Assembly (NCBI GenBank): GCA_037783545.1
Contig: JBBELK010000053.1
Coordinates: forward strand, 372,001 to 436,000
Source: Henricia sp. BOLD:AAB3569
Taxonomy: Eukaryota; Echinodermata; Asteroidea; Spinulosida; Echinasteridae
Reading direction: 5' to 3'
Length of the DNA: 64,000 bases
Shown: one piece after another, positions 98 to 64,000 of the stretch
Layout of the letters: every line of letters begins with the position of its first letter
How positions within the stretch are numbered: the stretch's first letter is position 1
Program-made: the position numbers and the translations under genes
Notes under the pieces: generated by a model
Seen by the model: the letters and a program-made list of their open reading frames with translations, nothing else
Database searches by the model: none
What the model was told of the DNA's origin: nothing

Positions 98-101
98 ACT
101 T

Positions 102-202: not shown

Positions 203-259
203 AATTGCTGAAATTTGCAGAACACGTTTGGGATATAGAGTTGTTTTAGCAGACAAAAT

Positions 260-3985: not shown

Positions 3986-4190
3986 TTGAAGTTTGTCTGG
4001 ACATTCCTTCAGTTCCAAAATAGCGACCACTTCAAACGCAATGTTTCCCGAAAGCGGCGTCTGCTTGTGCGAAAACTGTGCCCGCAAGGAGTTTTTGCTA
4101 GATTCGACGATAACTCGGTCGGTTTAAACATGAAATTGCTGAAATTTGCAGAACACGTTTGCGATATAGAGTTGTTTTAGCAGACAAAAT

Positions 4191-24772: not shown

Positions 24773-26519
24773 TTGAAGTTTGTTTGGAAATTCCTTCAGT
24801 TCCAAAATAGCGACCACTTCAGACGCAATGTTTCCCGAAAGCGGCGTCTGCTTGTGCAAAAACTGTGCCGGCAAGGAGTTTTTGCTAGATTCGACGATAA
24901 CTCGGTCGGTTTAAACGGGAAATTGCTGAATTTTGCAGAACACGTTTGTGATATAGAGTTGTTTTAGCAGACAAAATTTGAAGTTTGTCTGGAAATTCCT
25001 TCAGTTCCAAAATGGCGACCACTTCAGACGCAATGTTTCCCGAAAGCGGCGTCTGTTTGTGCGAAAAATGTTCCGGCAGAGAGTTTTTGCTAGATTCGAC
25101 GATAACTCGGTCGGTTTAAACGGGAAATTGCTGAAATTTGCAGAACACGTTTGGGATATAGAGTTGTTTTAGCAGACAAAATTTGAAGTTTGTCTGGACA
25201 TTCCTTCAGTTCCAAAATGGCGACCACTTCGGACGCAATGTTTCCCGAAAGCGGCGTCTGTTTGTGCGAAAACTGTTCCGGCAGTGAGTTTTTGCTAGAT
25301 TCGACGATAACTCGGTCGGTTTAAACGGGAAATTGCTGATATTTGCAGAACACGTTTGCGATATAGAGTTGTTTTAGCAGACAAAATTTGAAGTTTGTCT
25401 GGACATTCCTTCAGTTCCAAAATAGCGACAACTTCAAACGCAATGTTTACCGAAAGCGGCGTCTGCTTGTGCGAAAACTGTGCCGGCAAGGAGTTTTTGC
25501 TAAACGGGAAATTGCTGAAATTTGCAGAACACGTTTGGGATATAGAGTTGTTTTAGCAGACAAAATTTGAAGTTTGTCTGGAAATTCCTTCAGTTCCAAA
25601 ATGGCGACCACTTCGGACGCAATGTTTCCCGAAAGCGGCGTCTGTTTGTGCGAAAACTGTTCCGGCAGTGAGTTTTTGCTAGATTCGACGATAACTCGGT
25701 CGGTTTAAACGGGAAATTGCTGAAATTTGCAGAACACGTTTGCGATATAGAGTTGTTTTAGCAGACAAAATTTGAAGTTTGTCTGGAAATTCCTTCAGTT
25801 CCAAAATGGCGACCACTTCAGACGCAATGTTTCCCGAAAGCGGCGTCTGTTTGTGCGAAAAATTTTCCGGCAGAGAGTTTTTGCTAGATTCGACGATAAC
25901 TCGGTCGGTTTAAACGGGAAATTGCTGAAATTTGCAGAACACGTTTGGGATATAGAGTTGTTTTAGCAGACAAAATTTGAAGTTTGTCTGGACATTCCTT
26001 CAGTTCCAAAATAGCGACCACTTCAAACGCAATGTTTCCCGAAAGCGGGGTCTGCTTGTGCGAAAACTGTGCCCGCAAGGAGTTTTTGCTAGATTCGACG
26101 ATAACTCGGTCGGTTTAAACGTGAAATTGCTGAAATTTGCAGAACACGTTTGCGATATAGAGTTGTTTTAGCAGACAAAATTTGAAGTTTGTCTGGACAT
26201 TCCTTCAGTTCCAAAATGGCGACCACTTCAGACGCAATGTTTCCCGAAAGCGGCGTCTGTTTGGGATATAGAGTTGTTTTAGCAGACAAAATTTGAAGTT
26301 TGTTTGGAAATTCCTTCAGTTCCAAAATAGCGACCACTTCAGACGCAATGTTTCCCGAAAGCGGCGTCTGCTTGTGCAAAAACTGTGCCGGCAAGGAGTT
26401 TTTGCTAGATTCGACGATAACTCGGTCGGTTTAAACGGGAAATTGCTGAAATTTGCAGAACACGTTTGCGATATAGAGTTGTTTTAGCAGACACAATTTG
26501 AAGTTTGTCTGGACATTCC
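24773..26519 (+). repeat. Block homologous to 31734-33480 (offset 6961)
   Basis: The order is: GAATTTTGCAG monomer, GGAAATTCC/GGCGACC monomer, CAGTGAG monomer, 26-bp-deleted monomer (25388), CAGTGAG monomer, AAATTTTCCGG monomer (25772), GACATTCC/TTTAAACGTG monomer, short monomer (26182), full monomer (26293). The same order is found 6961 bp downstream, where the next monomer is interrupted by the inserted element. The uninterrupted monomer at 26498 is therefore one empty-site reference for that insertion. Confidence 0.9.
25388..25566 (+). repeat. 179-bp monomer with 26-bp deletion (five copies in the window)
   Basis: TTTTTGCTA is joined directly to AACGGG near 25503, removing 26 bp that include the CGGTCGG part of the CENP-B-like stretch and half of GTTTAAAC. 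A TA is shared at the joint. The same deletion is seen in monomers starting at 32349, 39862, 48360 and 58668. The 39862 copy also lacks 7 bp (GATATAG) near 40010. Each copy is followed by a CAGTGAG monomer, so the variant marks a long repeated block. Confidence 0.93.
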
Positions 26520-28248
26520 TTCAGTTCCAAAATGGCGACCACTTCAGACGCAATGTTTCCCGAAAGCGGCGTCTGTTTGTGCGAAAAATGTTCCGGCAGA
26601 GAGTTTTTGCTAGATTCGACGATAACTCGGTCGGTTTAAACGGGAAATTGCTGAAATTTGCAGAACACGTTTGGGATATAGAGTTGTTTTAGCAGACAAA
26701 ATTTGAAGTTTGTTTGGAAATTCCTTCAGTTCCAAAATAGCGACCACTTCAGACGCAATGTTTCCCGAAAGCGGCGTCTGCTTGTGCAAAAACTGTGCCG
26801 GCAAGGAGTTTTTGCTAGATTCGACGATAACTCGGTCGGTTTAAACGGGAAATTGCTGAAATTTGCAGAACACGTTTGCGATATAGAGTTGTTTTAGCAG
26901 ACAAAATTTGAAGTTTGTCTGGAAATTCCTTCAGTTCCAAAATGGCGACCACTTCAGACGCAATGTTTCCCGAAAGCGGCGTCTGTTTGTGCGAAAAATT
27001 TTCCGGCAGAGAGTTTTTGCTAGATTCGACGATAACTCGGTCGGTTTAAACGGGAAATTGCTGAAATTTGCAGAACACGTTTGGGATATAGAGTTGTTTT
27101 AGCAGACAAAATTTGAAGTTTGTCTGGACATTCCTTCAGTTCCAAAATAGCGACCACTTCAAACGCAATGTTTCCCGAAAGCGGCGTCTGCTTGTGCGAA
27201 AACTGTGCCCGCAAGGAGTTTTTGCTAGATTCGACGATAACTCGGTCGGTTTAAACGTGAAATTGCTGAAATTTGCAGAACACGTTTGCGATATAGAGTT
27301 GTTTTAGCAGACAAAATTTGAAGTTTGTCTGGACATTCCTTCAGTTCCAAAATGGCGACCACTTCGGACGCAATGTTTCCCGAAAGCGGCGTCTGTTTGG
27401 GATATAGAGTTGTTTTAGCAGACAAAATTTGAAGTTTGTTTGGAAATTCCTTCAGTTCCAAAATAGCGACCACTTCAGACGCAATGTTTCCCGAAAGCGG
27501 CGTCTGCTTGTGCAAAAACTGTGCCGGCAAGGAGTTTTTGCTAGATTCGACGATAACTCGGTCGGTTTAAACGGGAAATTGCTGAAATTTGCAGAACACG
27601 TTTGCGATATAGAGTTGTTTTAGCAGACAAAATTTGAAGTTTGTCTGGAAATTCCTTCAGTTCCAAAATGGCGACCACTTCAGACGCAATGTTTCCCGAA
27701 AGCGGCGTCTGTTTGTGCGAAAAATGTTCCGGCAGAGAGTTTTTGCTAGATTCGACGATAACTCGGTCGGTTTAAACGGGAAATTGCTGAAATTTGCAGA
27801 ACACGTTTGGGATATAGAGTTGTTTTAGCAGACAAAATTTGAAGTTTGTTTGGAAATTCCTTCAGTTCCAAAATAGCGACCACTTCAGACGCAATGTTTC
27901 CCGAAAGCGGCGTCTGCTTGTGCAAAAACTGTGCCGGCAAGGAGTTTTTGCTAGATTCGACGATAACTCGGTCGGTTTAAACGGGAAATTGCTGAAATTT
28001 GCAGAACACGTTTGGGATATAGAGTTGTTTTAGCAGACAAAATTTGAAGTTTGTCTGGAAATTCCTTCAGTTCCAAAATAGCGACCACTTCAAACGCAAT
28101 GTTTCCCGAAAGCGGCGTCTGCTTGTGCGAAAACTGTGCCCGCAAGGAGTTTTTGCTAGATTCGACGATAACTCGGTCGGTTTAAACGTGAAATTGCTGA
28201 AATTTGCAGAACACGTTTGCGATATAGAGTTGTTTTAGCAGACAAAAT

Positions 28249-31200
28249 TTGAAGTTTGTCTGGACATTCCTTCAGTTCCAAAATAGCGACAACTTCAAAC
28301 GCAATGTTTACCGAAAGCGGCGTCTGCTTGTGCGAAAACTGTGCCGGCAAGGAGTTTTTGCTAGATTCGACGATAACTCGGTCGGTTTAAACGGGAAATT
28401 GCTGAAATTTGCAGAACACGTTTGCGATATAGAGTTGTTTTAGCAGACTAAATTTGAAGTTTGTCTGGAAATTTGTTAAGTTCCAAAATAGCGACCACTT
28501 CAGACGCAATGTTTCCCGAAAGCGGCGTCTGTTTGTGCGAAAAATGTTCCGGCAGAGAGTTTTTGCTAGATTCGACGATAACTCGGTCGGTTTAAACGGG
28601 AAATTGCTGAAATTTGCAGAACACGTTTGGGATATAGAGTTGTTTTAGCAGACAAAATTTGAAGTTTGTCTGGACATTCCTTCAGTTCCAAAATGGCGAC
28701 CACTTCGGACGCAATGTTTCCCGAAAGCGGCGTCTGTTTGTGCGAAAAATGTTCCGGCAGAGAGTTTTTGCTAGATTCGACGATAACTCGGTCGGTTTAA
28801 ACGGGAAATTGCTGAAATTTGCAGAACACGTTTGGGATATAGAGTTGTTTTAGCAGACAAAATTTGAAGTTTGTCTGGACATTCCTTCAGTTCCAAAATG
28901 GCGACCACTTCGGACGCAATGTTTCCCGAAAGCGGCGTCTGTTTGTGCGAAAACTGTTCCGGCAGTGAGTTTTTGCTAGATTCGACGATAACTCGGTCGG
29001 TTTAAACGTGAAATTGCTGAAATTTGCAGAACACGTTTGCGATATAGAGTTGTTTTAGCAGACAAAATTTGAAGTTTGTCTGGACATTCCTTCAGTTCCA
29101 AAATAGCGACAACTTCAAACGCAATGTTTACCGAAAGCGGCGTCTGCTTGTGCGAAAACTGTGCCGGCAAGGAGTTTTTGCTAGATTCGACGATAACTCG
29201 GTCGGTTTAAACGGGAAATTGCTGAAATTTGCAGAACACGTTTGCGATATAGAGTTGTTTTAGCAGACTAAATTTGAAGTTTGTCTGGAAATTTGTTAAG
29301 TTCCAAAATAGCGACCACTTCAGACGCAATGTTTCCCGAAAGCGGCGTCTGTTTGTGCGAAAAATGTTCCGGCAGAGAGTTTTTGCTAGATTCGACGATA
29401 ACTCGGTCGGTTTAAACGGGAAATTGCTGAAATTTGCAGAACACGTTTGCGATATAGAGTTGTTTTAGCAGACTAAATTTGAAGTTTGTCTGGAAATTTG
29501 TTAAGTTCCAAAATAGCGACCACTTCAGACGCAATGTTTCCCGAAAGCGGCGTCTGTTTGTGCGAAAAATGTTCCGGCAGAGAGTTTTTGCTAGATTCGA
29601 CGATAACTCGGTCGGTTTAAACGGGAAATTGCTGAAATTTGCAGAACACGTTTGGGATATAGAGTTGTTTTAGCAGACAAAATTTGAAGTTTGTCTGGAC
29701 ATTCCTTCAGTTCCAAAATGGCGACCACTTCGGACGCAATGTTTCCCGAAAGCGGCGTCTGTTTGTGCGAAAAATGTTCCGGCAGAGAGTTTTTGCTAGA
29801 TTCGACGATAACTCGGTCTGTTTAAACGGGAAATTGCTGAAATTTGCAGAACACGTTTGGGATATAGAGTTGTTTTAGCAGACAAAATTTGAAGTTTGTC
29901 TGGACATTCCTTCAGTTCCAAAATGGCGACCACTTCGGACGCAATGTTTCCCGAAAGCGGCGTCTGTTTGTGCGAAAACTGTTCCGGCAGTGAGTTTTTG
30001 CTAGATTCGACGATAACTCGGTCGGTTTAAACGGGAAATTGCTGATATTTGCAGAACACGTTTGCGATATAGAGTTGTTTTAGCAGACAAAATTTGAAGT
30101 TTGTCTGGACATTCCTTCAGTTCCAAAATAGCGACAACTTCAAACGCAATGTTTACCGAAAGCGGCGTCTGCTTGTGCGAAAACTGTGCCGGCAAGGAGT
30201 TTTTGCTAGATTCGACGATAACTCGGTCGGTTTAAACGGGAAATTGCTGAAATTTGCAGAACACGTTTGCGATATAGAGTTGTTTTAGCAGACTAAATTT
30301 GAAGTTTGTCTGGAAATTTGTTAAGTTCCAAAATAGCGACCACTTCAGACGCAATGTTTCCCGAAAGCGGCGTCTGTTTGTGCGAAAAATGTTCCGGCAG
30401 AGAGTTTTTGCTAGATTCGACGATAACTCGGTCGGTTTGAACGGGAAATTGCTGAAATTTGCAGAACACGTTTGGGATATAGAGTTGTTTTAGCAGACAA
30501 AATTTGAAGTTTGTCTGGACATTCCTTCAGTTCCAAAATGGCGACCACTTCGGACGCAATGTTTCCCGAAAGCGGCGTCTGTTTGTGCGAAAAATGTTCC
30601 GGCAGAGAGTTTTTGCTAGATTCGACGATAACTCGGTCGGTTTAAACGGGAAATTGCTGAAATTTGCAGAATACGTTTGGGATATAGAGTTGTTTTAGCA
30701 GACAAAATTTGAAGTTTGTCTGGACATTCCTTCAGTTCCAAAATGGCGACCACTTCGGACGCAATGTTTCCCGAAAGCGGCGTCTGTTTGTGCGAAAACT
30801 GTTCCGGCAGTGAGTTTTTGCTAGATTCGACGATAACTCGGTCGGTTTAAACGGGAAATTGCTGATATTTGCAGAACACGTTTGCGATATAGAGTTGTTT
30901 TAGCAGACAAAATTTGAAGTTTGTCTGGACATTCCTTCAGTTCCAAAATAGCGACAACTTCAAACGCAATGTTTACCGAAAGCGGCGTCTGCTTGTGCGA
31001 AAACTGTGCCGGCAAGGAGTTTTTGCTAGATTCGACGATAACTCGGTCGGTTTAAACGGGAAATTGCTGAAATTTGCAGAACACGTTTGGGATATAGAGT
31101 TGTTTTAGCAGACAAAATTTGAAGTTTGTTTGGAAATTCCTTCAGTTCCAAAATAGCGACCACTTCAGACGCAATGTTTCCCGAAAGCGGCGTCTGCTTG

Positions 31201-31733
31201 TGCGAAAACTGTTCCGGCAGAGAGTTTTTGCTAGATTCGACGATAACTCGGTCGGTTTAAACGGGAAATTGCTGAAATTTGCAGAACACGTTTGGGATAT
31301 AGAGTTGTTTTAGCAGACAAAATTTGAAGTTTGTCTGGACATTCCTTCAGTTCCAAAATGGCGACCACTTCGGACGCAATGTTTCCCGAAAGCGGCGTCT
31401 GTTTGTGCGAAAACTGTTCCGGCAGTGAGTTTTTGCTAGATTCGACGATAACTCGGTCGGTTTAAACGGGAAATTGCTGATATTTGCAGAACACGTTTGC
31501 GATATAGAGTTGTTTTAGCAGACAAATTTGAAGTTTGTCTGGACATTCCTTCAGTTCCAAAATAGCGACAACTTCAAACGCAATGTTTACCCGAAAGCGG
31601 CGTCTGCTTGTGCGAAAACTGTGCCGGCAAGGAGTTTTTGCTAGATTCGACGATAACTCGGTCGGTTTAAACGGGAAATTGCTGAAATTTGCAGAACACG
31701 TTTGGGATATAGAGTTGTTTTAGCAGACAAAAT
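28249..31733 (+). repeat. 820-bp unit sub-array, 28.2-31.7 kb
   Basis: Units begin at 28249, 29069, 30094 and 30914 with the GACAACTTC/GTTTACCG monomer. The spacings are 820, 1025 and 820 bp. The 1025-bp unit has monomer 2 duplicated (29274 and 29479). After 30914 the order changes to a hybrid monomer at 31119 and a CAGTGAG monomer, leading into the 31734 block. Private changes include GGTCTGTTTAAAC near 29819 and GGTTTGAACG near 30439. Confidence 0.88.
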
Positions 31734-33481
31734 TTGAAGTTTGTTTGGAAATTCCTTCAGTTCCAAAATAGCGACCACTTCAGACGCAATGTTTCCCGAA
31801 AGCGGCGTCTGCTTGTGCAAAAACTGTGCCGGCAAGGAGTTTTTGCTAGATTCGACGATAACTCGGTCGGTTTAAACGGGAAATTGCTGAATTTTGCAGA
31901 ACACGTTTGTGATATAGAGTTGTTTTAGCAGACAAAATTTGAAGTTTGTCTGGAAATTCCTTCAGTTCCAAAATGGCGACCACTTCAGACGCAATGTTTC
32001 CCGAAAGCGGCGTCTGTTTGTGCGAAAAATGTTCCGGCAGAGAGTTTTTGCTAGATTCGACGATAACTCGGTCGGTTTAAACGGGAAATTGCTGAAATTT
32101 GCAGAACACGTTTGGGATATAGAGTTGTTTTAGCAGACAAAATTTGAAGTTTGTCTGGACATTCCTTCAGTTCCAAAATGGCGACCACTTCGGACGCAAT
32201 GTTTCCCGAAAGCGGCGTCTGTTTGTGCGAAAACTGTTCCGGCAGTGAGTTTTTGCTAGATTCGACGATAACTCGGTCGGTTTAAACGGGAAATTGCTGA
32301 TATTTGCAGAACACGTTTGCGATATAGAGTTGTTTTAGCAGACAAAATTTGAAGTTTGTCTGGACATTCCTTCAGTTCCAAAATAGCGACAACTTCAAAC
32401 GCAATGTTTACCGAAAGCGGCGTCTGCTTGTGCGAAAACTGTGCCGGCAAGGAGTTTTTGCTAAACGGGAAATTGCTGAAATTTGCAGAACACGTTTGGG
32501 ATATAGAGTTGTTTTAGCAGACAAAATTTGAAGTTTGTCTGGAAATTCCTTCAGTTCCAAAATGGCGACCACTTCGGACGCAATGTTTCCCGAAAGCGGC
32601 GTCTGTTTGTGCGAAAACTGTTCCGGCAGTGAGTTTTTGCTAGATTCGACGATAACTCGGTCGGTTTAAACGGGAAATTGCTGAAATTTGCAGAACACGT
32701 TTGCGATATAGAGTTGTTTTAGCAGACAAAATTTGAAGTTTGTCTGGAAATTCCTTCAGTTCCAAAATGGCGACCACTTCAGACGCAATGTTTCCCGAAA
32801 GCGGCGTCTGTTTGTGCGAAAAATTTTCCGGCAGAGAGTTTTTGCTAGATTCGACGATAACTCGGTCGGTTTAAACGGGAAATTGCTGAAATTTGCAGAA
32901 CACGTTTGGGATATAGAGTTGTTTTAGCAGACAAAATTTGAAGTTTGTCTGGACATTCCTTCAGTTCCAAAATAGCGACCACTTCAAACGCAATGTTTCC
33001 CGAAAGCGGCGTCTGCTTGTGCGAAAACTGTGCCCGCAAGGAGTTTTTGCTAGATTCGACGATAACTCGGTCGGTTTAAACGTGAAATTGCTGAAATTTG
33101 CAGAACACGTTTGCGATATAGAGTTGTTTTAGCAGACAAAATTTGAAGTTTGTCTGGACATTCCTTCAGTTCCAAAATGGCGACCACTTCAGACGCAATG
33201 TTTCCCGAAAGCGGCGTCTGTTTGGGATATAGAGTTGTTTTAGCAGACAAAATTTGAAGTTTGTTTGGAAATTCCTTCAGTTCCAAAATAGCGACCACTT
33301 CAGACGCAATGTTTCCCGAAAGCGGCGTCTGCTTGTGCAAAAACTGTGCCGGCAAGGAGTTTTTGCTAGATTCGACGATAACTCGGTCGGTTTAAACGGG
33401 AAATTGCTGAAATTTGCAGAACACGTTTGCGATATAGAGTTGTTTTAGCAGACAAAATTTGAAGTTTGTCTGGACATTCCT
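31734..33481 (+). repeat. Second copy of the 24773 block, ending at the insertion
   Basis: The monomer order is the same as 24773-26519, with the 26-bp-deleted monomer at 32349 and the short monomer at 33143. The next monomer, starting at 33459, is broken after GGACATTCCT by the inserted element. The preceding monomer at 31529 has two small private indels, in GACAAATTTG near 31526 and TTTACCCGAAAG near 31591. Confidence 0.9.
33476..33481. repeat. Target-site duplication, left copy (ATTCCT)
   Basis: The satellite reads GGACATTCCT up to here and then departs from the monomer. The same six bases reopen the satellite at 34231. Empty-site monomers at 26498, 40963 and 42304 have GGACATTCCTTCAG with a single ATTCCT. 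Confidence 0.8.
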
Positions 33482-33576
33482 AAATATGTCCAAGTTTTTC
33501 AGTAGTTTGCGTAATCATATTCTGTCTCCCGGTAAATCCATCATATTTCCATCCTAAGTACATGTAGGCCTGCACC

Positions 33577-33695
33577 CCCGAAACATACAAGTCTTGGTCT
33601 GCTTACATGCGCGCTTTTCTATGGCCCTACAAGCTGTCTGGTATTCTACCACGGAATTGTGCGCATGTAAGCAGAGTGCGACATCATGTTTCGGG
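33577..33695. repeat. 119-bp imperfect inverted repeat inside the insertion
   Basis: The outer arms CCCGAAACAT (33577-33586) and ATGTTTCGGG (33686-33695) are exact reverse complements. The inner arms, 15 bases at 33598-33612 and 33661-33675, are also exact reverse complements. Between them lie unpaired segments of 11 and 10 bases, and the loop is 48 bases. The loop itself has a TGGTA/TACCA mini-stem at 33639-33651. In RNA this would be a long hairpin with one internal loop. It may be a structured part of the element's 3' UTR or a small foldback element nested in it. I found no flanking duplication that would favour the second. Confidence 0.85.
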
Positions 33696-33700
33696 TTTAA

Positions 33701-33804
33701 TTTTTTTCTTTTCTGTTTTGTTTTGTTTTTGTTGTTGTTGTAGTTTTGTCTTTGTTTGTTGGATGTTTGTTTGTTTGTGTTGTTTGTTTGTTTTTTTTTT
33801 TTTT
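33701..33804 (+). repeat. T/G-rich low-complexity tract
   Basis: The tract is runs of TTTG and GTT units ending in 14 consecutive T (33791-33804). It creates an artificial open frame rich in Phe, Cys and Val. It is a likely site of sequencing or length variation. Confidence 0.85.
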
Positions 33805-33845
33805 AGAAGGAGATTTTTCATAAATGTACTTGAATTCCGTCTACA

Positions 33846-34010
33846 TATTTATTTATTTATACTTCCTCTCCTGCATAGCCCCTGTACTGTAAGCAAATCT
33901 ATTTGTAACTTAACCATACTTCAACATATATAACTGTACAAGAATGTATTTTTTAATCGACCAATATACTTGTAATACTATGCACTATGTATAATTTATT
34001 TATTTATTTA
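33846..34010 (+). repeat. Two ATTTA clusters flanking an A/T-rich stretch
   Basis: Overlapping ATTTA units occur at 33846-33861 and 33993-34010. In an mRNA 3' UTR such words can act as AU-rich destabilising elements; in genomic DNA they are equally explained as short microsatellites. Between them the sequence is A/T-rich with no recognisable gene. Confidence 0.6.
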
Positions 34011-34205
34011 AAATGCCTAATTACCTAGTATTATTTTATTTTGTACATGTGTATTTTAAGTGTTGGCATGGCGGCATTTGGAGAGCCACTCGATTGTGAT
34101 TTAGTTCACATTTGGCAATCCTTCAGGGGTGTTACCATGTAATGTTTTGTTTTATGTCAATTTTCATCTGTGCGTACTGTACCTTTCATGTTTGCCCTGA
34201 GAAAT

Positions 34206-34211
34206 AATAAA
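34206..34211 (+). promoter_or_regulatory. AATAAA polyadenylation-type signal
   Basis: The canonical hexamer overlaps the first base of the ATGAA tail. In retroposed elements whose tail is a short tandem repeat, the 3' terminus commonly lies immediately after such a hexamer. It supports plus-strand orientation of the insert. Confidence 0.6.
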
Positions 34212-34230
34212 TGAAATGAAATGAAATGAA

Positions 34231-34236
34231 ATTCCT
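34231..34236. repeat. Target-site duplication, right copy (ATTCCT)
   Basis: The copy follows directly after the ATGAA tail and continues as TCAGTTCCAAAATGG, the expected satellite. Because some monomers read GGAAATTCC, an alternative is that GAAATTCC belongs to the right flank, which makes the exact joint uncertain by a few bases. Confidence 0.75.
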
Positions 34237-34623
34237 TCAGTTCCAAAATGGCGGCCACTTCAGACGCAATGTTTCCCGAAAGCGGCGTCTGTTTGTGCGA
34301 AAAATGTTCCGGCAGAGAGTTTTTGCTAGATTCGACGATAACTCGGTCGGTTTAAACGGGAAATTGCTGAAATTTGCAGAACACGTTTGGGATATAGAGT
34401 TGTTTTAGCAGACAAAATTTGAAGTTTGTTTGGAAATTCCTTCAGTTCCAAAATAGCGACCACTTCAGACGCAATGTTTCCCGAAAGCGGCGTCTGCTTG
34501 TGCGAAAACTGTGCCCGCAAGGAGTTTTTGCTAGATTCGACGATAACTCGGTCGGTTTAAACGGGAAATTGCTGAAATTTGCAGAACACGTTTGCGATAT
34601 AGAGTTGTTTTAGCAGACAAAAT

Positions 34624-43200: not shown

Positions 43201-43328
43201 GCTTGTGCAAAAACTGTGCCGGCAAGGAGTTTTTGCTAGATTCGACGATAACTCGGTCGGTTTAAACGGGAAATTGCTGAAATTTGCAGAACACGTTTGC
43301 GATATAGAGTTGTTTTAGCAGACAAAAT

Positions 43329-48742: not shown

Positions 48743-49152
48743 TTTGAAGTTTGTCTGGAAATTCCTTCAGTTCCAAAATGGCGACCACTTCAGACGCAAT
48801 TTTCCCGAAAGCGGCGTCTGTTTGTGCGAAAAATTTTCCGGCAGAGAGTTTTTGCTAGATTCGACGATAACTCGGTCGGTTTAAACGGGAAATTGCTGAA
48901 ATTTGCAGAACACGTTTGGGATATAGAGTTGTTTTAGCAGACAAAATTTGAAGTTTGTCTGGACATTCCTTCAGTTCCAAAAAAGCGACCACTTCAAACG
49001 CAATGTTTCCCGAAAGCGGCGTCTGCTTGTGCGAAAACTGTGCCCGCAAGGAGTTTTTGCTAGATTCGACGATAACTCGGTCGGTTTAAACGTGAAATTG
49101 CTGAAATTTGCAGAACACGTTTGCGATATAGAGTTGTTTTAGCAGACAAAAT

Positions 49153-52100: not shown

Positions 52101-53918
52101 CTTCAGACGCAATGTTTCCCGAAAGCTGCGTCTGCTTGTGCAAAAACTGTGCCGGCAAGGAGTTTTTGCTAGATTCGACGATAACTCGGTCGGTTTAAAC
52201 GGGAAATTGCTGAAATTTGCAGAACACGTTTGCGATATAGAGTTGTTTTAGCAGACAAAATTTGAAGTTTGTCTGGAAATTCCTTCAGTTCCAAAATGGC
52301 GACCACTTCAGACGCAATGTTTCCCGAAAGCGGCGTCTGTTTGTGCGAAAAATTTTCCGGCAGAGAGTTTTTGCTAGATTCGACGATAACTCGGTCGGTT
52401 TAAACGGGAAATTGCTGAAATTTGCAGAACACGTTTGGGATATAGAGTTGTTTTAGCAGACAAAATTTGAAGTTTGTCTGGACATTCCTTCAGTTCCAAA
52501 ATAGCGACCACTTCAAACGCAATGTTTCCCGAAAGCGGCGTCTGCTTGTGCGAAAACTGTGCCCGCAAGGAGTTTTTGCTAGATTCGACGATAACTCGGT
52601 CGGTTTAAACGTGAAATTGCTGAAATTTGCAGAACACGTTTGCGATATAGAGTTGTTTTAGCAGACAAAATTTGAAGTTTGTCTGGACATTCCTTCAGTT
52701 CCAAAATGGCGACCACTTCAGACGCAATGTTTCCCGAAAGCGGCGTCTGTTTGGGATATAGAGTTGTTTTAGCAGACAAAATTTGAAGTTTGTTTGGAAA
52801 TTCCTTCAGTTCCAAAATAGCGACCACTTCAGACGCAATGTTTCCCGAAAGCGGCGTCTGCTTGTGCAAAAACTGTGCCGGCAAGGAGTTTTTGCTAGAT
52901 TCGACGATAACTCGGTCGGTTTAAACGGGAAATTGCTGAAATTTGCAGAACACGTTTGCGATATAGAGTTGTTTTAGCAGACAAAATTTGAAGTTTGTCT
53001 GGAAATTCCTTCAGTTCCAAAATGGCGACCACTTCAGACGCAATGTTTCCCGAAAGCGGCGTCTGTTTGTGCGAAAAATTTTCCGGCAGAGAGTTTTTGC
53101 TAGATTCGACGATAACTCGGTCGGTTTAAACGGGAAATTGCTGAAATTTGCAGAACACGTTTGGGATATAGAGTTGTTTTAGCAGACAAAATTTGAAGTT
53201 TGTTTGGAAATTCCTTCAGTTCCAAAATAGCGACCACTTCAGACGCAATGTTTCCCGAAAGCGGCGTCTGCTTGTGCAAAAACTGTGCCGGCAAGGAGTT
53301 TTTGCTAGATTCGACGATAACTCGGTCGGTTTAAACGGGAAATTGCTGAAATTTGCAGAACACGTTTGCGATATAGAGTTGTTTTAGCAGACAAAATTTG
53401 AAGTTTGTCTGGAAATTCCTTCAGTTCCAAAATGGCGACCACTTCAGACGCAATGTTTCCCGAAAGCGGCGTCTGTTTGTGCGAAAAATGTTCCGGCAGA
53501 GAGTTTTTGCTAGATTCGACGATAACTCGGTCGGTTTAAACGGGAAATTGCTGAAATTTGCAGAACACGTTTGGGATATAGAGTTGTTTTAGCAGACAAA
53601 ATTTGAAGTTTGTCTGGACATTCCTTCAGTTCCAAAATAGCGACCACTTCAAACGCAATGTTTCCCGAAAGCGGCGTCTGTTTGGGATATAGAGTTGTTT
53701 TAGCAGACAAAATTTGAAGTTTGTTTGGAAATTCCTTCAGTTCCAAAATAGCGACCACTTCAGACGCAATGTTTCCCGAAAGCGGCGTCTGCTTGTGCAA
53801 AAACTGTGCCGGCAAGGAGTTTTTGCTAGATTCGACGATAACTCGGTCGGTTTAAACGGGAAATTGCTGAAATTTGCAGAACACGTTTGCGATATAGAGT
53901 TGTTTTAGCAGACAAAAT
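49153..53918 (+). repeat. Tandem pair of 2383-bp higher-order units
   Basis: The units are 49153-51535 and 51536-53918, each starting with a short monomer. Both carry the private change AGCTGCGTCT (49744 and 52127) found nowhere else that I noticed. Both contain three short monomers at the same offsets (49153, 50289 and 51220; 51536, 52672 and 53603). This is a recent duplication, since I noticed no base difference between the copies while reading. Confidence 0.92.
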
Positions 53919-56822
53919 TTGAAGTTTGTCTGGACATTCCTTCAGTTCCAAAATAGCGACCACTTCAAACGCAATGTTTCCCGAAAGCGGCGTCTGCTTG
54001 TGCGAAAACTGTGCCCGCAAGGAGTTTTTGCTAGATTCGACGATAACTCGGTCGGTTTAAACGTGAAATTGCTGAAATTTGCAGAACACGTTTGCGATAT
54101 AGAGTTGTTTTAGCAGACAAAATTTGAAGTTTGTCTGGACATTCCTTCAGTTCCAAAATGGCGACCACTTCAGACGCAATGTTTCCCGAAAGCGGCGTCT
54201 GTTTGGGATATAGAGTTGTTTTAGCAGACAAAATTTGAAGTTTGTTTGGAAATTCCTTCAGTTCCAAAATAGCGACCACTTCAGACGCAATGTTTCCCGA
54301 AAGCGGCGTCTGCTTGTGCAAAAACTGTGCCGGCAGAGAGTTTTTGCTAGATTCGACGATAACTCGGTCGGTTTAAACGGGAAATTGCTGAAATTTGCAG
54401 AACACGTTTGGGATATAGAGTTGTTTTAGCAGACAAAATTTGAAGTTTGTCTGGAAATTCCTTCAGTTCCAAAATGGCGACCACTTCAGACGCAATGTTT
54501 CCCGAAAGCGGCGTCTGTTTGTGCGAAAAATTTTCCGGCAGAGAGTTTTTGCTAGATTCGACGATAACTCGGTCGGTTTAAACGGGAAATTGCTGAAATT
54601 TGCAGAACACGTTTGGGATATAGAGTTGTTTTAGCAGACAAAATTTGAAGTTTGTTTGGAAATTCCTTCAGTTCCAAAATAGCGACCACTTCAGACGCAA
54701 TGTTTCCCGAAAGCGGCGTCTGCTTGTGCAAAAACTGTGCCGGCAAGGAGTTTTTGCTAGATTCGACGATAACTCGGTCGGTTTAAACGGGAAATTGCTG
54801 AAATTTGCAGAACACGTTTGCGATATAGAGTTGTTTTAGCAGACAAAATTTGAAGTTTGTCTGGAAATTCCTTCAGTTCCAAAATGGCGACCACTTCAGA
54901 CGCAATGTTTCCCGAAAGCGGCGTCTGTTTGTGCGAAAAATGTTCCGGCAGAGAGTTTTTGCTAGATTCGACGATAACTCGGTCGGTTTAAACGGGAAAT
55001 TGCTGAAATTTGCAGAACACGTTTGGGATATAGAGTTGTTTTAGCAGACAAAATTTGAAGTTTGTCTGGACATTCCTTCAGTTCCAAAATAGCGACCACT
55101 TCAAACGCAATGTTTCCCGAAAGCGGCGTCTGTTTGGGATATAGAGTTGTTTTAGCAGACAAAATTTGAAGTTTGTTTGGAAATTCCTTCAGTTCCAAAA
55201 TAGCGACCACTTCAGACGCAATGTTTCCCGAAAGCGGCGTCTGCTTGTGCAAAAACTGTGCCGGCAAGGAGTTTTTGCTAGATTCGACGATAACTCGGTC
55301 GGTTTAAACGGGAAATTGCTGAAATTTGCAGAACACGTTTGCGATATAGAGTTGTTTTAGCAGACAAAATTTGAAGTTTGTCTGGAAATTCCTTCAGTTC
55401 CAAAATGGCGACCACTTCAGACGCAATGTTTCCCGAAAGCGGCGTCTGTTTGTGCGAAAAATTTTCCGGCAGAGAGTTTTTGCTAGATTCGACGATAACT
55501 CGGTCGGTTTAAACGGGAAATTGCTGAAATTTGCAGAACACGTTTGGGATATAGAGTTGTTTTAGCAGACAAAATTTGAAGTTTGTCTGGACATTCCTTC
55601 AGTTCCAAAATAGCGACCACTTCAAACGCAATGTTTCCCGAAAGCGGCGTCTGCTTGTGCGAAAACTGTGCCCGCAAGGAGTTTTTGCTAGATTCGACGA
55701 TAACTCGGTCGGTTTAAACGTGAAATTGCTGAAATTTGCAGAACACGTTTGCGATATAGAGTTGTTTTAGCAGACAAAATTTGAAGTTTGTCTGGACATT
55801 CCTTCAGTTCCAAAATGGCGACCACTTCAGACGCAATGTTTCCCGAAAGCGGCGTCTGTTTGGGATATAGAGTTGTTTTAGCAGACAAAATTTGAAGTTT
55901 GTTTGGAAATTCCTTCAGTTCCAAAATAGCGACCACTTCAGACGCAATGTTTCCCGAAAGCGGCGTCTGCTTGTGCAAAAACTGTGCCGGCAGAGAGTTT
56001 TTGCTAGATTCGACGATAACTCGGTCGGTTTAAACGGGAAATTGCTGAAATTTGCAGAACACGTTTGGGATATAGAGTTGTTTTAGCAGACAAAATTTGA
56101 AGTTTGTTTGGAAATTCCTTCAGTTCCAAAATAGCGACCACTTCAGACGCAATGTTTCCCGAAAGCGGCGTCTGCTTGTGCAAAAACTGTGCCGGCAAGG
56201 AGTTTTTGCTAGATTCGACGATAACTCGGTCGGTTTAAACGGGAAATTGCTGAAATTTGCAGAACACGTTTGCGATATAGAGTTGTTTTAGCAGACAAAA
56301 TTTGAAGTTTGTCTGGAAATTCCTTCAGTTCCAAAATGGCGACCACTTCAGACGCAATGTTTCCCGAAAGCGGCGTCTGTTTGTGCGAAAAATGTTCCGG
56401 CAGAGAGTTTTTGCTAGATTCGACGATAACTCGGTCGGTTTAAACGGGAAATTGCTGAAATTTGCAGAACACGTTTGGGATATAGAGTTGTTTTAGCAGA
56501 CAAAATTTGAAGTTTGTCTGGACATTCCTTCAGTTCCAAAATAGCGACCACTTCAAACGCAATGTTTCCCGAAAGCGGCGTCTGTTTGGGATATAGAGTT
56601 GTTTTAGCAGACAAAATTTGAAGTTTGTTTGGAAATTCCTTCAGTTCCAAAATAGCGACCACTTCAGACGCAATGTTTCCCGAAAGCGGCGTCTGCTTGT
56701 GCAAAAACTGTGCCGGCAAGGAGTTTTTGCTAGATTCGACGATAACTCGGTCGGTTTAAACGGGAAATTGCTGAAATTTGCAGAACACGTTTGCGATATA
56801 GAGTTGTTTTAGCAGACAAAAT
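53919..56822 (+). repeat. Imperfect tandem units of 1452 and 1247 bp
   Basis: The two units start at 53919 and 55576. They share a rare hybrid monomer (54235 and 55892) in which the CAAAAACTGTGCC type switches to GGCAGAGAG. The first unit has one extra AAATTTTCCGG monomer at 54440, so positions after it are offset by 1452 instead of 1657 bp. An AAATTTTCCGG monomer at 55371 separates the two units. Confidence 0.82.
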
Positions 56823-57232
56823 TTGAAGTTTGTCTGGAAATTCGTTAAGTTCCAAAATAGCGACCACTTCAGACGCAATGTTTCCCGAAAGCGGCGTCTG
56901 CTTGTGCAAAAACTCTGCCGGCAATGAGTTTTTGCTAGATTCGACGATAACTCGGTTGGTTTAAACGGGAAATTGCTGAAATTTGCAGAACACGTTTGGG
57001 ATATAGAGTTGTTTTAGCAGACAAAATTTGAAGTTTGTCTGGACATTCCTTCAGTTCCAAAATAGCGACCACTTCAAACGCAATGTTTCCCGAAAGCGGC
57101 GTCTGCTTGTGCGAAAACTGTGCCCGCAAGGAGTTTTTGCTAGATTCGACGATAACTCGGTCGGTTTAAACGTGAAATTGCTGAAATTTGCAGAACACGT
57201 TTGCGATATAGAGTTGTTTTAGCAGACAAAAT

Positions 57233-58257
57233 TTGAAGTTTGTCTGGACATTCCTTCAGTTCCAAAATAGCGACAACTTCAAACGCAATGTTTACCGAAA
57301 GCGGCGTCTGCTTGTGCGAAAACTGTGCCGGCAAGGAGTTTTTGCTAGATTCGACGATAACTCGGTCGGTTTAAACGGGAAATTGCTGAAATTTGCAGAA
57401 CACGTTTGCGATATAGAGTTGTTTTAGCAGACTAAATTTGAAGTTTGTCTGGAAATTTGTTAAGTTCCAAAATAGCGACCACTTCAGACGCAATGTTTCC
57501 CGAAAGCGGCGTCTGTTTGTGCGAAAAATGTTCCGGCAGAGAGTTTTTGCTAGATTCGACGATAACTCGGTCGGTTTAAACGGGAAATTGCTGAAATTTG
57601 CAGAACACGTTTGGGATATAGAGTTGTTTTAGCAGACAAAATTTGAAGTTTGTCTGGACATTCCTTCAGTTCCAAAATGGCGACCACTTCGGACGCAATG
57701 TTTCCCGAAAGCGGCGTCTGTTTGTGCGAAAAATGTTCCGGCAGAGAGTTTTTGCTAGATTCGACGATAACTCGGTCGGTTTAAACGGGAAATTGCTGAA
57801 ATTTGCAGAACACGTTTGGGATATAGAGTTGTTTTAGCAGACAAAATTTGAAGTTTGTCTGGACATTCCTTCAGTTCCAAAATGGCGACCACTTCGGACG
57901 CAATGTTTCCCGAAAGCGGCGTCTGTTTGTGCGAAAACTGTTCCGGCAGTGAGTTTTTGCTAGATTCGACGATAACTCGGTCGGTTTAAACGGGAAATTG
58001 CTGACATTTGCAGAACACGTTTGCGATATAGAGTTGTTTTAGCAGACAAAATTTGAAGTTTGTCTGGACATTCCTTCAGTTCCAAAATAGCGACAACTTC
58101 AAACGCAATGTTTACCGAAAGCGGCGTCTGCTTGTGCGAAAACTGTGCCGGCAAGGAGTTTTTGCTAGATTCGACGATAACTCGGTCGGTTTAAACGGGA
58201 AATTGCTGAAATTTGCAGAACACGTTTGGGATATAGAGTTGTTTTAGCAGACAAAAT
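57233..58257 (+). repeat. 820-bp unit sub-array, 57.2-58.3 kb
   Basis: One complete four-monomer unit (57233-58052) is followed by the first monomer of another (58053). After a GTTTGTTTGG monomer and a CAGTGAG monomer, the 26-bp-deleted monomer at 58668 follows. The sub-array is shorter than its counterparts at 28, 36 and 44.7 kb, so the number of 820-bp units varies between super-units. Confidence 0.85.
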
Positions 58258-59777
58258 TTGAAGTTTGTTTGGAAATTCCTTCAGTTCCAAAATAGCGACC
58301 ACTTCAGACGCAATGTTTCCCGAAAGCGGCGTCTGCTTGTGCAAAAACTGTGCCGGCAAGGAGTTTTTGCTAGATTCGACGATAACTCGGTCGGTTTAAA
58401 CGGGAAATTGCTGAAATTTGCAGAACACGTTTGGGATATAGAGTTGTTTTAGCAGACAAAATTTGAAGTTTGTCTGGACATTCCTTCAGTTCCAAAATGG
58501 CGACCACTTCGGACGCAATGTTTCCCGAAAGCGGCGTCTGTTTGTGCGAAAACTGTTCCGGCAGTGAGTTTTTGCTAGATTCGACGATAACTCGGTCGGT
58601 TTAAACGGGAAATTGCTGATATTTGCAGAACACGTTTGCGATATAGAGTTGTTTTAGCAGACAAAATTTGAAGTTTGTCTGGACATTCCTTCAGTTCCAA
58701 AATAGCGACAACTTCAAACGCAATGTTTACCGAAAGCGGCGTCTGCTTGTGCGAAAACTGTGCCGGCAAGGAGTTTTTGCTAAACGGGAAATTGCTGAAA
58801 TTTGCAGAACACGTTTGGGATATAGAGTTGTTTTAGCAGACAAAATTTGAAGTTTGTCTGGAAATTCCTTCAGTTCCAAAATGGCGACCACTTCGGACGC
58901 AATGTTTCCCGAAAGCGGCGTCTGTTTGTGCGAAAACTGTTCCGGCAGTGAGTTTTTGCTAGATTCGACGATAACTCGGTCGGTTTAAACGGGAAATTGC
59001 TGAAATTTGCAGAACACGTTTGCGATATAGAGTTGTTTTAGCAGACAAAATTTGAAGTTTGTCTGGAAATTCCTTCAGTTCCAAAATGGCGACCACTTCA
59101 GACGCAATGTTTCCCGAAAGCGGCGTCTGCTTGTGCGAAAACTGTGCCCGCAAGGAGTTTTTGCTAGATTCGACGATAACTCGGTCGGTTTAAACGTGAA
59201 ATTGCTGAAATTTGCAGAACACGTTTGCGATATAGAGTTGTTTTAGCAGACAAAATTTGAAGTTTGTCTGGACATTCCTTCAGTTCCAAAATGGCGACCA
59301 CTTCAGACGCAATGTTTCCCGAAAGCGGCGTCTGTTTGGGATATAGAGTTGTTTTAGCAGACAAAATTTGAAGTTTGTTTGGAAATTCCTTCAGTTCCAA
59401 AATAGCGACCACTTCAGACGCAATGTTTCCCGAAAGCGGCGTCTGCTTGTGCAAAAACTGTGCCGGCAAGGAGTTTTTGCTAGATTCGACGATAACTCGG
59501 TCGGTTTAAACGGGAAATTGCTGAAATTTGCAGAACACGTTTGCGATATAGAGTTGTTTTAGCAGACAAAATTTGAAGTTTGTCTGGAAATTCCTTCAGT
59601 TCCAAAATGGCGACCACTTCAGACGCAATGTTTCCCGAAAGCGGCGTCTGTTTGTGCGAAAAATGTTCCGGCAGAGAGTTTTTGCTAGATTCGACGATAA
59701 CTCGGTCGGTTTAAACGGGAAATTGCTGAAATTTGCAGAACACGTTTGCGATATAGAGTTGTTTTAGCAGACAAAAT

Positions 59778-61639
59778 TTGAAGTTTGTCTGGAAATTCCT
59801 TCAGTTCCAAAATGGCGACCACTTCAGACGCAATGTTTCCCGAAAGCGGCGTCTGTTTGTGCGAAAAATGTTCCGGCAGAGAGTTTTTGCTAGATTCGAC
59901 GATAACTCGGTCGGTTTAAACGGGAAATTGCTGAAATTTGCAGAACACGTTTGGGATATAGAGTTGTTTTAGCAGACAAAATTTGAAGTTTGTCTGGACA
60001 TTCCTTCAGTTCCAAAATAGCGACCACTTCAAACGCAATGTTTCCCGAAAGCGGCGTCTGCTTGTGCGAAAACTGTGCCCGCAAGGAGTTTTTGCTAGAT
60101 TCGACGATAACTCGGTCGGTTTAAACGTGAAATTGCTGAAATTTGCAGAACACGTTTGCGATATAGAGTTGTTTTAGCAGACAAAATTTGAAGTTTGTCT
60201 GGACATTCCTTCAGTTCCAAAATGGCGACCACTTCAGACGCAATGTTTCCCGAAAGCGGCGTCTGTTTGGGATATAGAGTTGTTTTAGCAGACAAAATTT
60301 GAAGTTTGTTTGGAAATTCCTTCAGTTCCAAAATAGCGACCACTTCAGACGCAATGTTTCCCGAAAGCGGCGTCTGCTTGTGCAAAAACTGTGCCGGCAA
60401 GGAGTTTTTGCTAGATTCGACGATAACTCGGTCGGTTTAAACGGGAAATTGCTGAAATTTGCAGAACACGTTTGCGATATAGAGTTGTTTTAGCAGACAA
60501 AATTTGAAGTTTGTCTGGAAATTCCTTCAGTTCCAAAATGGCGACCACTTCAGACGCAATGTTTCCCGAAAGCGGCGTCTGTTTGTGCGAAAAATGTTCC
60601 GGCAGAGAGTTTTTGCTAGATTCGACGATAACTCGGTCGGTTTAAACGGGAAATTGCTGAAATTTGCAGAACACGTTTGGGATATAGAGTTGTTTTAGCA
60701 GACAAAATTTGAAGTTTGTTTGGAAATTCCTTCAGTTCCAAAATAGCGACCACTTCAGACGCAATGTTTCCCGAAAGCGGCGTCTGCTTGTGCAAAAACT
60801 GTGCCGGCAAGGAGTTTTTGCTAGATTCGACGATAACTCGGTCGGTTTAAACGGGAAATTGCTGAAATTTGCAGAACACGTTTGCGATATAGAGTTGTTT
60901 TAGCAGACAAAATTTGAAGTTTGTCTGGAAATTCCTTCAGTTCCAAAATGGCGACCACTTCAGACGCAATGTTTCCCGAAAGCGGCGTCTGTTTGTGCGA
61001 AAAATGTTCCGGCAGAGAGTTTTTGCTAGATTCGACGATAACTCGGTCGGTTTAAACGGGAAATTGCTGAAATTTGCAGAACACGTTTGGGATATAGAGT
61101 TGTTTTAGCAGACAAAATTTGAAGTTTGTCTGGACATTCCTTCAGTTCCAAAATAGCGACCACTTCAAACGCAATGTTTCCCGAAAGCGGCGTCTGCTTG
61201 TGCGAAAACTGTGCCCGCAAGGAGTTTTTGCTAGATTCGACGATAACTCGGTCGGTTTAAACGTGAAATTGCTGAAATTTGCAGAACACGTTTGCGATAT
61301 AGAGTTGTTTTAGCAGACAAAATTTGAAGTTTGTCTGGACATTCCTTCAGTTCCAAAATGGCGACCACTTCAGACGCAATGTTTCCCGAAAGCGGCGTCT
61401 GTTTGGGATATAGAGTTGTTTTAGCAGACAAAATTTGAAGTTTGTTTGGAAATTCCTTCAGTTCCAAAATAGCGACCACTTCAGACGCAATGTTTCCCGA
61501 AAGCGGCGTCTGCTTGTGCAAAAACTGTGCCGGCAAGGAGTTTTTGCTAGATTCGACGATAACTCGGTCGGTTTAAACGGGAAATTGCTGAAATTTGCAG
61601 AACACGTTTGCGATATAGAGTTGTTTTAGCAGACAAAAT
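59778..61639 (+). repeat. 1136-bp higher-order period
   Basis: The order at 59778-60503 (full, full, short, full) recurs at 60914-61639, an offset of 1136 bp, which is five full monomers plus one short one. The same 1136-bp spacing between short monomers is seen at 17769/18905, 21681/22817, 26182/27318, 49153/50289 and 51536/52672, so it is a favoured unit of the short-monomer sub-arrays. Confidence 0.85.
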
Positions 61640-61844
61640 TTGAAGTTTGTCTGGACATTCCTTCAGTTCCAAAATAGCGACCACTTCAAACGCAATGTTT
61701 CCCGAAAGCGGCGTCTGCTTGTGCGAAAACTGTGCCCGCAAGGAGTTTTTGCTAGATTCGACGATAACTCGGTCGGTTTAAACGGGAAATTGCTGAAATT
61801 TGCAGAACACGTTTGCGATATAGAGTTGTTTTAGCAGACAAAAT

Positions 61845-62028
61845 TTGAAGTTTGTCTGGAAATTCGTTAAGTTCCAAAATAGCGACCACTTCAGACGCAA
61901 TGTTTCCCGAAAGCGGCGTCTGCTTGTGCAAAAACTCTGCCGGCAAGGAGTTTTTGCTAGATTCGACGGGAAATTGCTGAAATTTGCAGAACACGTTTGG
62001 GATATAGAGTTGTTTTAGCAGACAAAAT
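61845..62028 (+). repeat. 184-bp monomer with a unique 21-bp deletion
   Basis: ATTCGACG is joined to GGAAATTGC near 61967, removing 21 bp that include GTTTAAAC and most of the CENP-B-like stretch. ACG is shared by the two ends. I found this deletion only once, unlike the spread 94-bp and 26-bp deletions, so it appears to be recent. Confidence 0.92.
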
Positions 62029-64000
62029 TTGAAGTTTGTCTGGACATTCCTTCAGTTCCAAAATAGCGACCACTTCAAACGCAATGTTTCCCGAAAGCGG
62101 CGTCTGCTTGTGCGAAAACTGTGCCCGCAAGGAGTTTTTGCTAGATTCGACGATAACTCGGTCGGTTTAAACGTGAAATTGCTGAAATTTGCAGAACACG
62201 TTTGCGATATAGAGTTGTTTTAGCAGACAAAATTTGAAGTTTGTCTGGACATTCCTTCAGTTCCAAAATAGCGACAACTTCAAACGCAATGTTTACCGAA
62301 AGCGGCGTCTGCTTGTGCGAAAACTGTGCCGGCAAGGAGTTTTTGCTAGATTCGACGATAACTCGGTCGGTTTAAACGGGAAATTGCTGAAATTTGCAGA
62401 ACACGTTTGCGATATAGAGTTGTTTTAGCAGACAAAATTTGAAGTTTGTCTGGAAATTCCTTCAGTTCCAAAATGGCGACCACTTCAGACGCAATGTTTC
62501 CCGAAAGCGGCGTCTGTTTGTGCGAAAAATTTTCCGGCAGAGAGTTTTTGCTAGATTCGACGATAACTCGGTCGGTTTAAACGTGAAATTGCTGAAATTT
62601 GCAGAACACGTTTGCGATATAGAGTTGTTTTAGCAGACAAAATTTGAAGTTTGTCTGGACATTCCTTCAGTTCCAAAATGGCGACCACTTCAGACGCAAT
62701 GTTTCCCGAAAGCGGCGTCTGTTTGGGATATAGAGTTGTTTTAGCAGACAAAATTTGAAGTTTGTTTGGAAATTCCTTCAGTTCCAAAATAGCGACCACT
62801 TCAGACGCAATGTTTCCCGAAAGCGGCGTCTGCTTGTGCAAAAACTGTGCCGGCAAGGAGTTTTTGCTAGATTCGACGATAACTCGGTCGGTTTAAACGG
62901 GAAATTGCTGAAATTTGCAGAACACGTTTGCGATATAGAGTTGTTTTAGCAGACAAAATTTGAAGTTTGTCTGGAAATTCCATCAGTTCCAAAATGGCGA
63001 CCACTTCAGACGCAATGTTTTCTCGAAAGCGGCGTCTGTTTGTGCGAAAAATGTTCCGGCAGAGAGTTTTTGCTAGATTCGACGATAACTCGGTCGGTTT
63101 AAACGGGAAATTGCTGAAATTTGCAGAACACGTTTGGGATATAGAGTTGTTTTAGCAGACAAAATTTGAAGTTTGTTTGGAAATTCCTTCAGTTCCAAAA
63201 TAGCGACCACTTCAGACGCAATGTTTCCCGAAAGCGGCGTCTGCTTGTGCAAAAACTGTGCCGGCAAGGAGTTTTTGCTAGATTCGACGATAACTCGGTC
63301 GGTTTAAACGGGAAATTGCTGAAATTTGCAGAACACGTTTGCGATATAGAGTTGTTTTAGCAGACAAAATTTGAAGTTTGTCTGGAAATTCCTTCAGTTC
63401 CAAAATGGCGACCACTTCAGACGCAATGTTTCCCGAAAGCGGCGTCTGTTTGTGCGAAAAATGTTCCGGCAGAGAGTTTTTGCTAGATTCGACGATAACT
63501 CGGTCGGTTTAAACGGGAAATTGCTGAAATTTGCAGAACACGTTTGGAATATAGAGTTGTTTTAGCAGACAAAATTTGAAGTTTGTCTGGACATTCCTTC
63601 AGTTCCAAAATAGCGACCACTTCAAACGCAATGTTTCCCGAAAGCGGCGTCTGTTTGGGATATAGAGTTGTTTTAGCAGACAAAATTTGAAGTTTGTTTG
63701 GAAATTCCTTCAGTTCCAAAATAGCGACCACTTCAGACGCAATGTTTCCCGAAAGCGGCGTCTGCTTGTGCAAAAACTGTGCCGGCAAGGAGTTTTTGCT
63801 AGATTCGACGATAACTCGGTCGGTTTAAACGGGAAATTGCTGAAATTTGCAGAACACGTTTGCGATATAGAGTTGTTTTAGCAGACAAAATTTGAAGTTT
63901 GTCTGGAAATTCGTTAAGTTCCAAAATAGCGACCACTTCAGACGCAATGTTTCCCGAAAGCGGCGTCTGCTTGTGCAAAAACTCTGCCGGCAAGGAGTTT

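Follow-up and report, generated by a model that had tools for sequence, protein, structure and literature searches.

The 64,000-nucleotide stretch of the Henricia sp. genome analyzed here (contig JBBELK010000053.1, positions 372,001 to 436,000; hereafter the window) is built of a 205-bp satellite in which a third level of organization stands above the monomer and above an 820-bp higher-order repeat (HOR) of four monomers. This third level is real but irregular and has no fixed super-unit length. It is seen in four successive units (U1 to U4) of 6961, 7511, 8500, and 10308 bp, enclosed by five markers, which are type-C monomers with a 26-bp deletion; the deletion junction is identical in all five and is found nowhere else in the window. 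Private variants and near-identical stretches of up to 3.1 kb recur at equivalent places 7 to 9 kb apart, and we regard them as decisive for the third level. The array very probably represents a local-nested HOR, or superHOR with variable run lengths, produced by repeated in-register duplication and loss within the 205-bp satellite.

The array continues across the whole window with one break, a single insertion. Cutting at a conserved 20-base anchor (323 anchors, 322 monomers) automatically yielded 275 monomers of 205 bp, 32 of 111 bp, 4 of 179 bp, 3 of 283 bp, and 3 of 206 bp, together with singletons of 207, 204, 184, 172, and 960 bp. The 960-bp monomer bears the insertion, and the 172-bp one is a cutting artifact, being really a fifth 179-bp monomer followed by an H monomer without 7 bp. 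The full-length monomers (n = 275) share a mean pairwise identity of 96.1% and comprise 71 distinct sequences. Twenty-three common variable positions separate the monomers into 57 labels, many of them rare, with short and odd-length variants carrying labels of their own. The ten commonest full-length labels were named A to J and every remaining full monomer received the nearest letter, so the letters of hybrid monomers are approximate. Short monomers of 111 bp come in two forms, s with an I-like front (n = 25) and t with a B-like front (n = 7), both missing the same 94-bp segment, located between two GTTTG words. Eight of the 23 common variable sites fall at monomer positions 113 to 137, a weak clustering that 139 of 2000 random draws also reach. 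Small indels put the monomers at 31495 and 39998 out of register, and both are excluded from the rare-variant counts below. The first of them, a C-type monomer (31495 to 31699), keeps its normal length: one base is lost near position 30 and one gained near position 96, so that the two indels compensate each other and only the bases between them are out of register.

The second level is the four-monomer unit C-E-F-H, which occurs intact as EFHC 13 times in the window, 9 of them right of 24.8 kb. The consensus sequences of the four types differ from one another at 3 to 13 of 205 bases, and the best copy at a lag of 820 bp shows 2 mismatches in 1573 bp. This is the organization of an HOR satellite, with monomers far more alike than those of human HORs. 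An earlier note on this DNA had described the region from 24.8 kb onward as an alternation of sub-arrays rich in 111-bp monomers with sub-arrays of the 820-bp unit, and all nine of its block ranges hold the monomers it named. The five short-monomer ranges contain 2, 2, 3, 10, and 3 monomers of 111 bp and no E-F step, and the four 820-bp ranges contain 3, 3, 4, and 1 E-F steps and no 111-bp monomer. Short monomers are thus present in all five ranges, though "rich" is generous for a first block in which they make up only 2 of 12, and the range from 57.2 to 58.3 kb is a single 820-bp unit rather than a sub-array.

In the letters of the monomer types, each super-unit runs from its marker through HGBsA.AGBsADAB, or a changed or expanded form of it, and C(EFHC)n to a tail before the next marker, which is A, AA, or longer with D and H. 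All five markers follow an EFHC block, as had been claimed, and start 34 to 36 bp before the positions first given for them, a difference of phase. Two of the proposed spacings (6961 and 10308 bp) were exact, and the other two (7513 and 8498 bp) were off by 2. U1 is composed of 32 × 205 + 2 × 111 + 179 bp, U2 minus its insertion of 31 × 205 + 2 × 111 + 179 bp, U3 of 38 × 205 + 198 + 3 × 111 + 179 bp, and U4 of 43 × 205 + 204 + 10 × 111 + 179 bp. The suggestion that lengths change in 205-bp steps therefore applies to U1 and U2, which differ by 205 bp once the insertion is set aside, and fails for U3 and U4, which add 111-bp monomers, and for the 755 bp of U2 that are the insertion and its target-site duplication. 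U4 is the longest because its short-monomer block was enlarged. When the units are aligned blind to monomer types, pairwise identity among U1 to U4 is 97.3 to 98.7%, with gaps of 205, 111, 110, 94, 1230, 1435, 1452, and 2887 bp plus a few of 1 and 7; the majority of these lengths are sums of 205 and 111. Beside the third marker, the H monomer from 40005 has lost 7 bp near its start (GATATA region), a loss that among marker-adjacent monomers is found in this unit only.

Alternation alone is no test of a third level, because two kinds of block can only alternate. An array in which local succession rules and recent short duplications give an alternating look, with no further level, would show the same pattern, and the string of monomer types is compatible with it: there are 106 matching 7-mer pairs of types, and Markov strings of orders 1 to 4 give means of 26.7, 104.6, 180.3, and 226.7, with 3, 111, 296, and 300 of 300 strings reaching the observed count. 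The longest repeated type string is 14 monomers, compared to a mean of 18.5 in 200 order-3 strings. This null is strict, because a Markov chain learned from such a repetitive string will regenerate its loops, but the result stands, and the third level consequently rests on private variants and markers.

These speak strongly against local rules as the sole source of the pattern. Of the 83 type-A monomers, 7 carry an A-to-T change at monomer position 193 (193T), and each of these carriers is the final A ahead of a 179- or 283-bp marker; conversely, 7 of the 8 markers of these two kinds are preceded by a carrier. Spacings between 193T carriers in the right part are 6961, 7921, and 8500 bp. A second private variant, a G at position 83 (83G), marks 3 of the 25 s monomers; its carriers begin at 27284, 35000, and 43705, which gives lags of 7716 and 8705 bp. 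The surroundings of carriers were scored with gaps over six monomers on either side, for nine sets of full-length rare-variant carriers (2 to 10 each) together with the short monomers bearing 83G; the test does not extend to variants at the 23 positions that define the classes, such as T at position 6 (5 carriers) and those of class J. Mean flank similarity was 3.56 (36 pairs, some of which lie close together in the left part), compared to a null mean of -2.43 and maximum of 1.33, and none of 1000 draws reached it. The two right-part sets alone gave 6.67 compared to -1.82 (maximum 4.67; 0 of 2000 draws). For the five deletion markers the flank score was 5.80, compared to -1.17 for random right-part C monomers (maximum 5.70 in 2000 draws).

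Comparison at the level of bases leads to the same place. Of 421 near-identical ungapped stretches listed, which can overlap, 184 start right of 24.5 kb, and the summed length of these 184 per 500-bp lag bin averages 7796 bases at lags of 6.5 to 10.5 kb (8 bins). The corresponding values are 3036 at 2 to 6.5 kb (9 bins), 3062 at 10.5 to 14.5 kb (8 bins), and 3980 at 14.5 to 18.5 kb (8 bins), an enrichment of about 2.5-fold over the lags just below and above. The diagonals at 7 to 10 kb that a self-comparison was predicted to reveal are thus present. The excess is uneven, with 8859, 11506, 16683, and 8980 bases in the bins at 6.5, 7.5, 8.5, and 9.5 kb and low values of 4030, 2467, and 4396 in those at 7.0, 8.0, and 9.0 kb; short lags of about 1 kb are likewise high (15530 bases). 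Individual long-lag copies include 3123 bp with 7 mismatches at lag 8500, 2336 bp with 4 at lag 7716, and 1840 bp with 1 at lag 6961, and a copy at lag 16421, about two units, extends over 3173 bp with 8 mismatches. Given this enrichment, and private variants and a 26-bp deletion common to equivalent positions 7 to 9 kb apart, an array with no third level seems improbable, even with its order-2 Markov match. The 7- to 10-kb super-unit of the earlier note accordingly survives in part: markers and private variants do recur at this distance, in contexts beyond those of random draws, but the super-unit is not fixed, the four bounded units having four lengths, and their inner blocks vary by nested duplications.

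Misjoined or duplicated near-identical reads could also generate long-range copies, and some copies are close enough to raise the question, differing by 1 in 2526 bp. A simple assembler duplication, however, would yield identical copies, whereas the units are distinguished by whole-monomer differences, by an insertion present in one of them only, and by the 7-bp loss after one marker. We therefore consider an assembly artifact a quite remote explanation of the copies.

How might such a hierarchy arise? We propose that segments ranging from a few monomers to some tens of them would have been duplicated or lost in register, repeatedly, through unequal exchange between misaligned sisters or homologues or through a copying equivalent such as break-induced replication, which would leave much the same marks. 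Older, long duplications may have spread a cassette comprising the short-monomer block, the EFHC block, and the deletion marker, and later, shorter duplications would have grown or shrunk both blocks within each copy. Both the exchange mechanism and this order of events are what we infer; the copies, shared private variants, whole-monomer length differences, tandem squares, and hybrid monomers are there to be read in the window. Tandem stretches number 25 among those listed at lags of 410 to 3912 bp (some overlapping; 18 right of 24.5 kb), and 19 of them, with between 1 and 29 mismatches, cover a full period. The cleanest resemble recent duplications in register, and in U4 a tandem stretch at lag 1452 bp has 4 mismatches in 1570 bp. 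Hybrid monomers point to exchange as well. The t monomers combine a B front with the s deletion, and each of the 7 has D or G in front of it and A behind it; B-s-A groups likewise follow G or D in 16 of 22 cases. This shared context is what a crossover between B and s would be expected to produce. Six of the seven t monomers are alike at three diagnostic sites, and in the seventh, at 41544, the break falls between positions 71 and 84, a distinct breakpoint that probably reflects a separate event, so that at least two exchanges are likely. When blind duplication and loss of segments up to 60 monomers was simulated in six settings (100 runs each), a label with at least three spacings of 25 to 60 monomers appeared in 2, 7, 30, 37, 20, and 22 of 100 runs. 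Such an outcome therefore requires no selection on the unit, but is not guaranteed either.

Several points weigh against an origin by nested duplication and loss. Repetition in the type string is no more than in order-2 Markov strings and less than in those of orders 3 and 4. Private variants and markers are few and were partly picked after being seen; the last A before the closing marker of U4 is without 193T, and the flank statistic of the deletion markers has a narrow margin. Six of the 25 tandem rows fall short of a full period. The simulation demonstrates possibility and depends on its settings, and an array as homogeneous as this one is open to assembly error.

A functional explanation would be that selection maintains the super-unit, for example because it serves as a centromere unit whose chromatin follows a set pattern. 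The regular order is what could be cited for it, along with one stretch resembling a CENP-B box. That stretch, at consensus positions 166 to 182, matches 8 of 9 core bases of the motif, and we rejected it as evidence of function: 16 of 500 shuffles match or exceed its score, and B monomers carry a T at position 180, inside the stretch. Unit length, moreover, is not conserved, ranging from 6961 to 10308 bp, and shorter versions lie to the left, all of which makes maintenance by selection extremely unlikely. Alternatively, the two kinds of block could be chromatin modules, with the super-unit alternating phased and dephased chromatin over several kilobases. EFHC runs would hold a strict 205-bp register, with one nucleosome plus linker per monomer, each 111-bp monomer would shift that register by 94 bp, and amplification would favor units with both blocks. 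We consider this scheme highly unlikely. A centromeric or pericentromeric location of the array is itself a guess.

Base composition bears on methylation. The CpG observed/expected ratio of the satellite is 1.43, which would be odd for a methylated vertebrate satellite. CpG bases make up 26 of the 205 consensus bases and account for 10 of the 31 rare variants (at most 3 carriers), more than their share would predict, split evenly between 5 transversions and 5 transitions; with equal numbers of both, there is no clear deamination signature of methylated CpG. No Rfam family is matched at gathering score, sequence words of the satellite find no match in viral contigs or in one-per-species prokaryote contigs, and six of its words have no occurrence in the literature searched. 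Six-frame translations of a monomer trimer contain nothing recognizable on reading by eye.

The pattern had been presented as special to the region from 24.8 kb onward, which does not hold: the same block order is found in shorter versions within 1 to 24.8 kb (Table 1), although the letters are less regular at about 10 to 17 kb. The 283-bp variants of this left part are nearly identical, each combining a C front with a second copy of the monomer. They hold the place that the 179-bp deleted C has to the right, which gives the impression of two rearrangements of the unit boundary.

The insertion in U2 lies within a monomer with an I-type front. Its 749 inserted bases end in a TGAAA run, and the 6-base ATTCCT forms a target-site duplication. 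We take it to resemble the 3' end of a 5'-truncated non-LTR (long terminal repeat) retrotransposon, judged from its features and with no database match. Being present in one of the four units only, it either arrived after unit copying or was lost elsewhere. Within it lie a T/G-rich low-complexity stretch (about 33703 to 33803) and an inverted repeat (33598 to 33624 and 33649 to 33675) with 27-nt arms that are 81% complementary and 24 nt apart, perhaps an older foldback element. The whole insertion has no match in phage records, one 32-base pattern from it was not found in viral contigs, and its six-frame translations show nothing recognizable on reading by eye.

Table 1. Coordinates of the array, its super-units, and associated features within the window.
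Feature	Position	Strand	Remarks
Single head-to-tail 205-bp satellite array	1..64000	+	322 monomers as cut; 0 minus-strand anchors
Copy pair	3542..9482	+	Lag 3358 bp, 2 mismatches in 2583 bp
283-bp monomer variant	5797..6079	+	After EFHCAAH; also at 9155, 10053
Tandem duplication, short super-unit version	16847..24850	+	Period 3912 bp, 16 mismatches in 4092 bp
Type-A monomer with private variant 193T	24739..24943	+	Also at 5387, 8745, 9643, 31700, 39621, 48121
Marker, type-C monomer with 26-bp deletion	25354..25532	+	179 bp
Super-unit U1	25354..32314	+	6961 bp; marker, HGBsAIAGBsADAB, CEFHCEEFHCEFHC, AHCADH
Stretch of U1 between its two 111-bp short monomers	26148..27394	+	Second short monomer (27284) bears 83G
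EFHC block of U1	28420..31084	+	Three intact turns
Marker	32315..32493	+	179 bp
Super-unit U2	32315..39825	+	7511 bp, 755 bp of it insertion with target-site duplication
Insertion in monomer with I-type front	33482..34236	+	755 bp: 749 bases (33482-34230) plus second ATTCCT
EFHC block of U2	36136..39415	+	Two intact turns plus partial ones
Marker	39826..40004	+	179 bp; next H without 7 bp near its start
Super-unit U3	39826..48325	+	8500 bp
EFHC block of U3	44841..47915	+	Three intact turns plus one partial
Marker	48326..48504	+	179 bp
Super-unit U4	48326..58633	+	10308 bp; enlarged short-monomer block, nearly perfect tandem stretches (lags 2383 and 1452 bp)
Tandem duplication in U4	49046..53954	+	Period 2383 bp, 1 mismatch in 2526 bp
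EFHC of U4	57404..58223	+	Single turn
Marker	58634..58812	+	179 bp
Fifth unit, start only	58634..64000	+	Ends at window edge

Short and very homogeneous as it is, the window displays several stages in the building of satellite levels, from hybrid monomers through four-monomer HORs to nested cassettes of several kilobases, and its private variants leave the history of the array partly readable. HOR-finding programs whose model allows each monomer only once per unit could usefully be tested on it. The window also advises caution, since the visible alternation of two kinds of block is by itself no evidence for a further level.

Among known systems, the CpG ratio sets the satellite mildly apart from a methylated vertebrate satellite. 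By description rather than by sequence it is like that of Xenopus tropicalis: the Cenp-a-bound satellite of that frog, in the part of the source available to us, has 205-bp monomers with a mean identity over 95% and one most variable segment (PMC10794172), and the Henricia satellite has the same monomer length, a similar identity, and variable sites that cluster weakly. Cascading HORs and the 58mer of the orangutan Y chromosome, as outlined in the available portions of their descriptions, are large units with sub-periods in which monomer types recur, as they do here (PMC11157248, PMC12428378). Unlike the present array, they are organized around a canonical unit present in many nearly identical copies (46 of 67 in orangutan Y) (PMC11157248, PMC12428378); the window has four units with four lengths.

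Closer parallels are offered by the superHORs of CentromereArchitect, defined in the available text as repeats in the HOR string when run lengths are ignored (PMC8336445). Runs on cenX vary in length, and hybrid monomers are reported there as they are found here, although those superHORs derive from long runs of a dominant HOR, whereas the inner HOR of the Henricia array has 1 to 3 intact turns plus partials (PMC8336445). Ignoring run lengths, the succession of short block, EFHC run, and marker occurs four times between 25354 and 58812 when the type string is read by eye. HiCAT describes local-nested HORs, larger units within which one subunit has been tandemly amplified to a varying copy number, for example 1-2-3-4-5-(6-7-8-9)xn-10-11 on human CEN15 (PMC10053651, as far as the accessible excerpt goes). 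The CEN15 form corresponds to block-(EFHC)n-marker, with three intact EFHC turns in U1, two plus partials in U2, three plus a partial in U3, and one in U4, and with tandem stretches in U4. The HiCAT examples come from human alpha satellite and a plant satellite, unlike the 205-bp monomer, 64 kb of visible array, and four bounded units considered here (PMC10053651). The earlier note had placed this organization beyond the usual monomer and higher-order levels. A level above the 820-bp HOR does exist, but, going by those parts of the literature, it is of a known kind, a nested pattern already described in primate centromeres.

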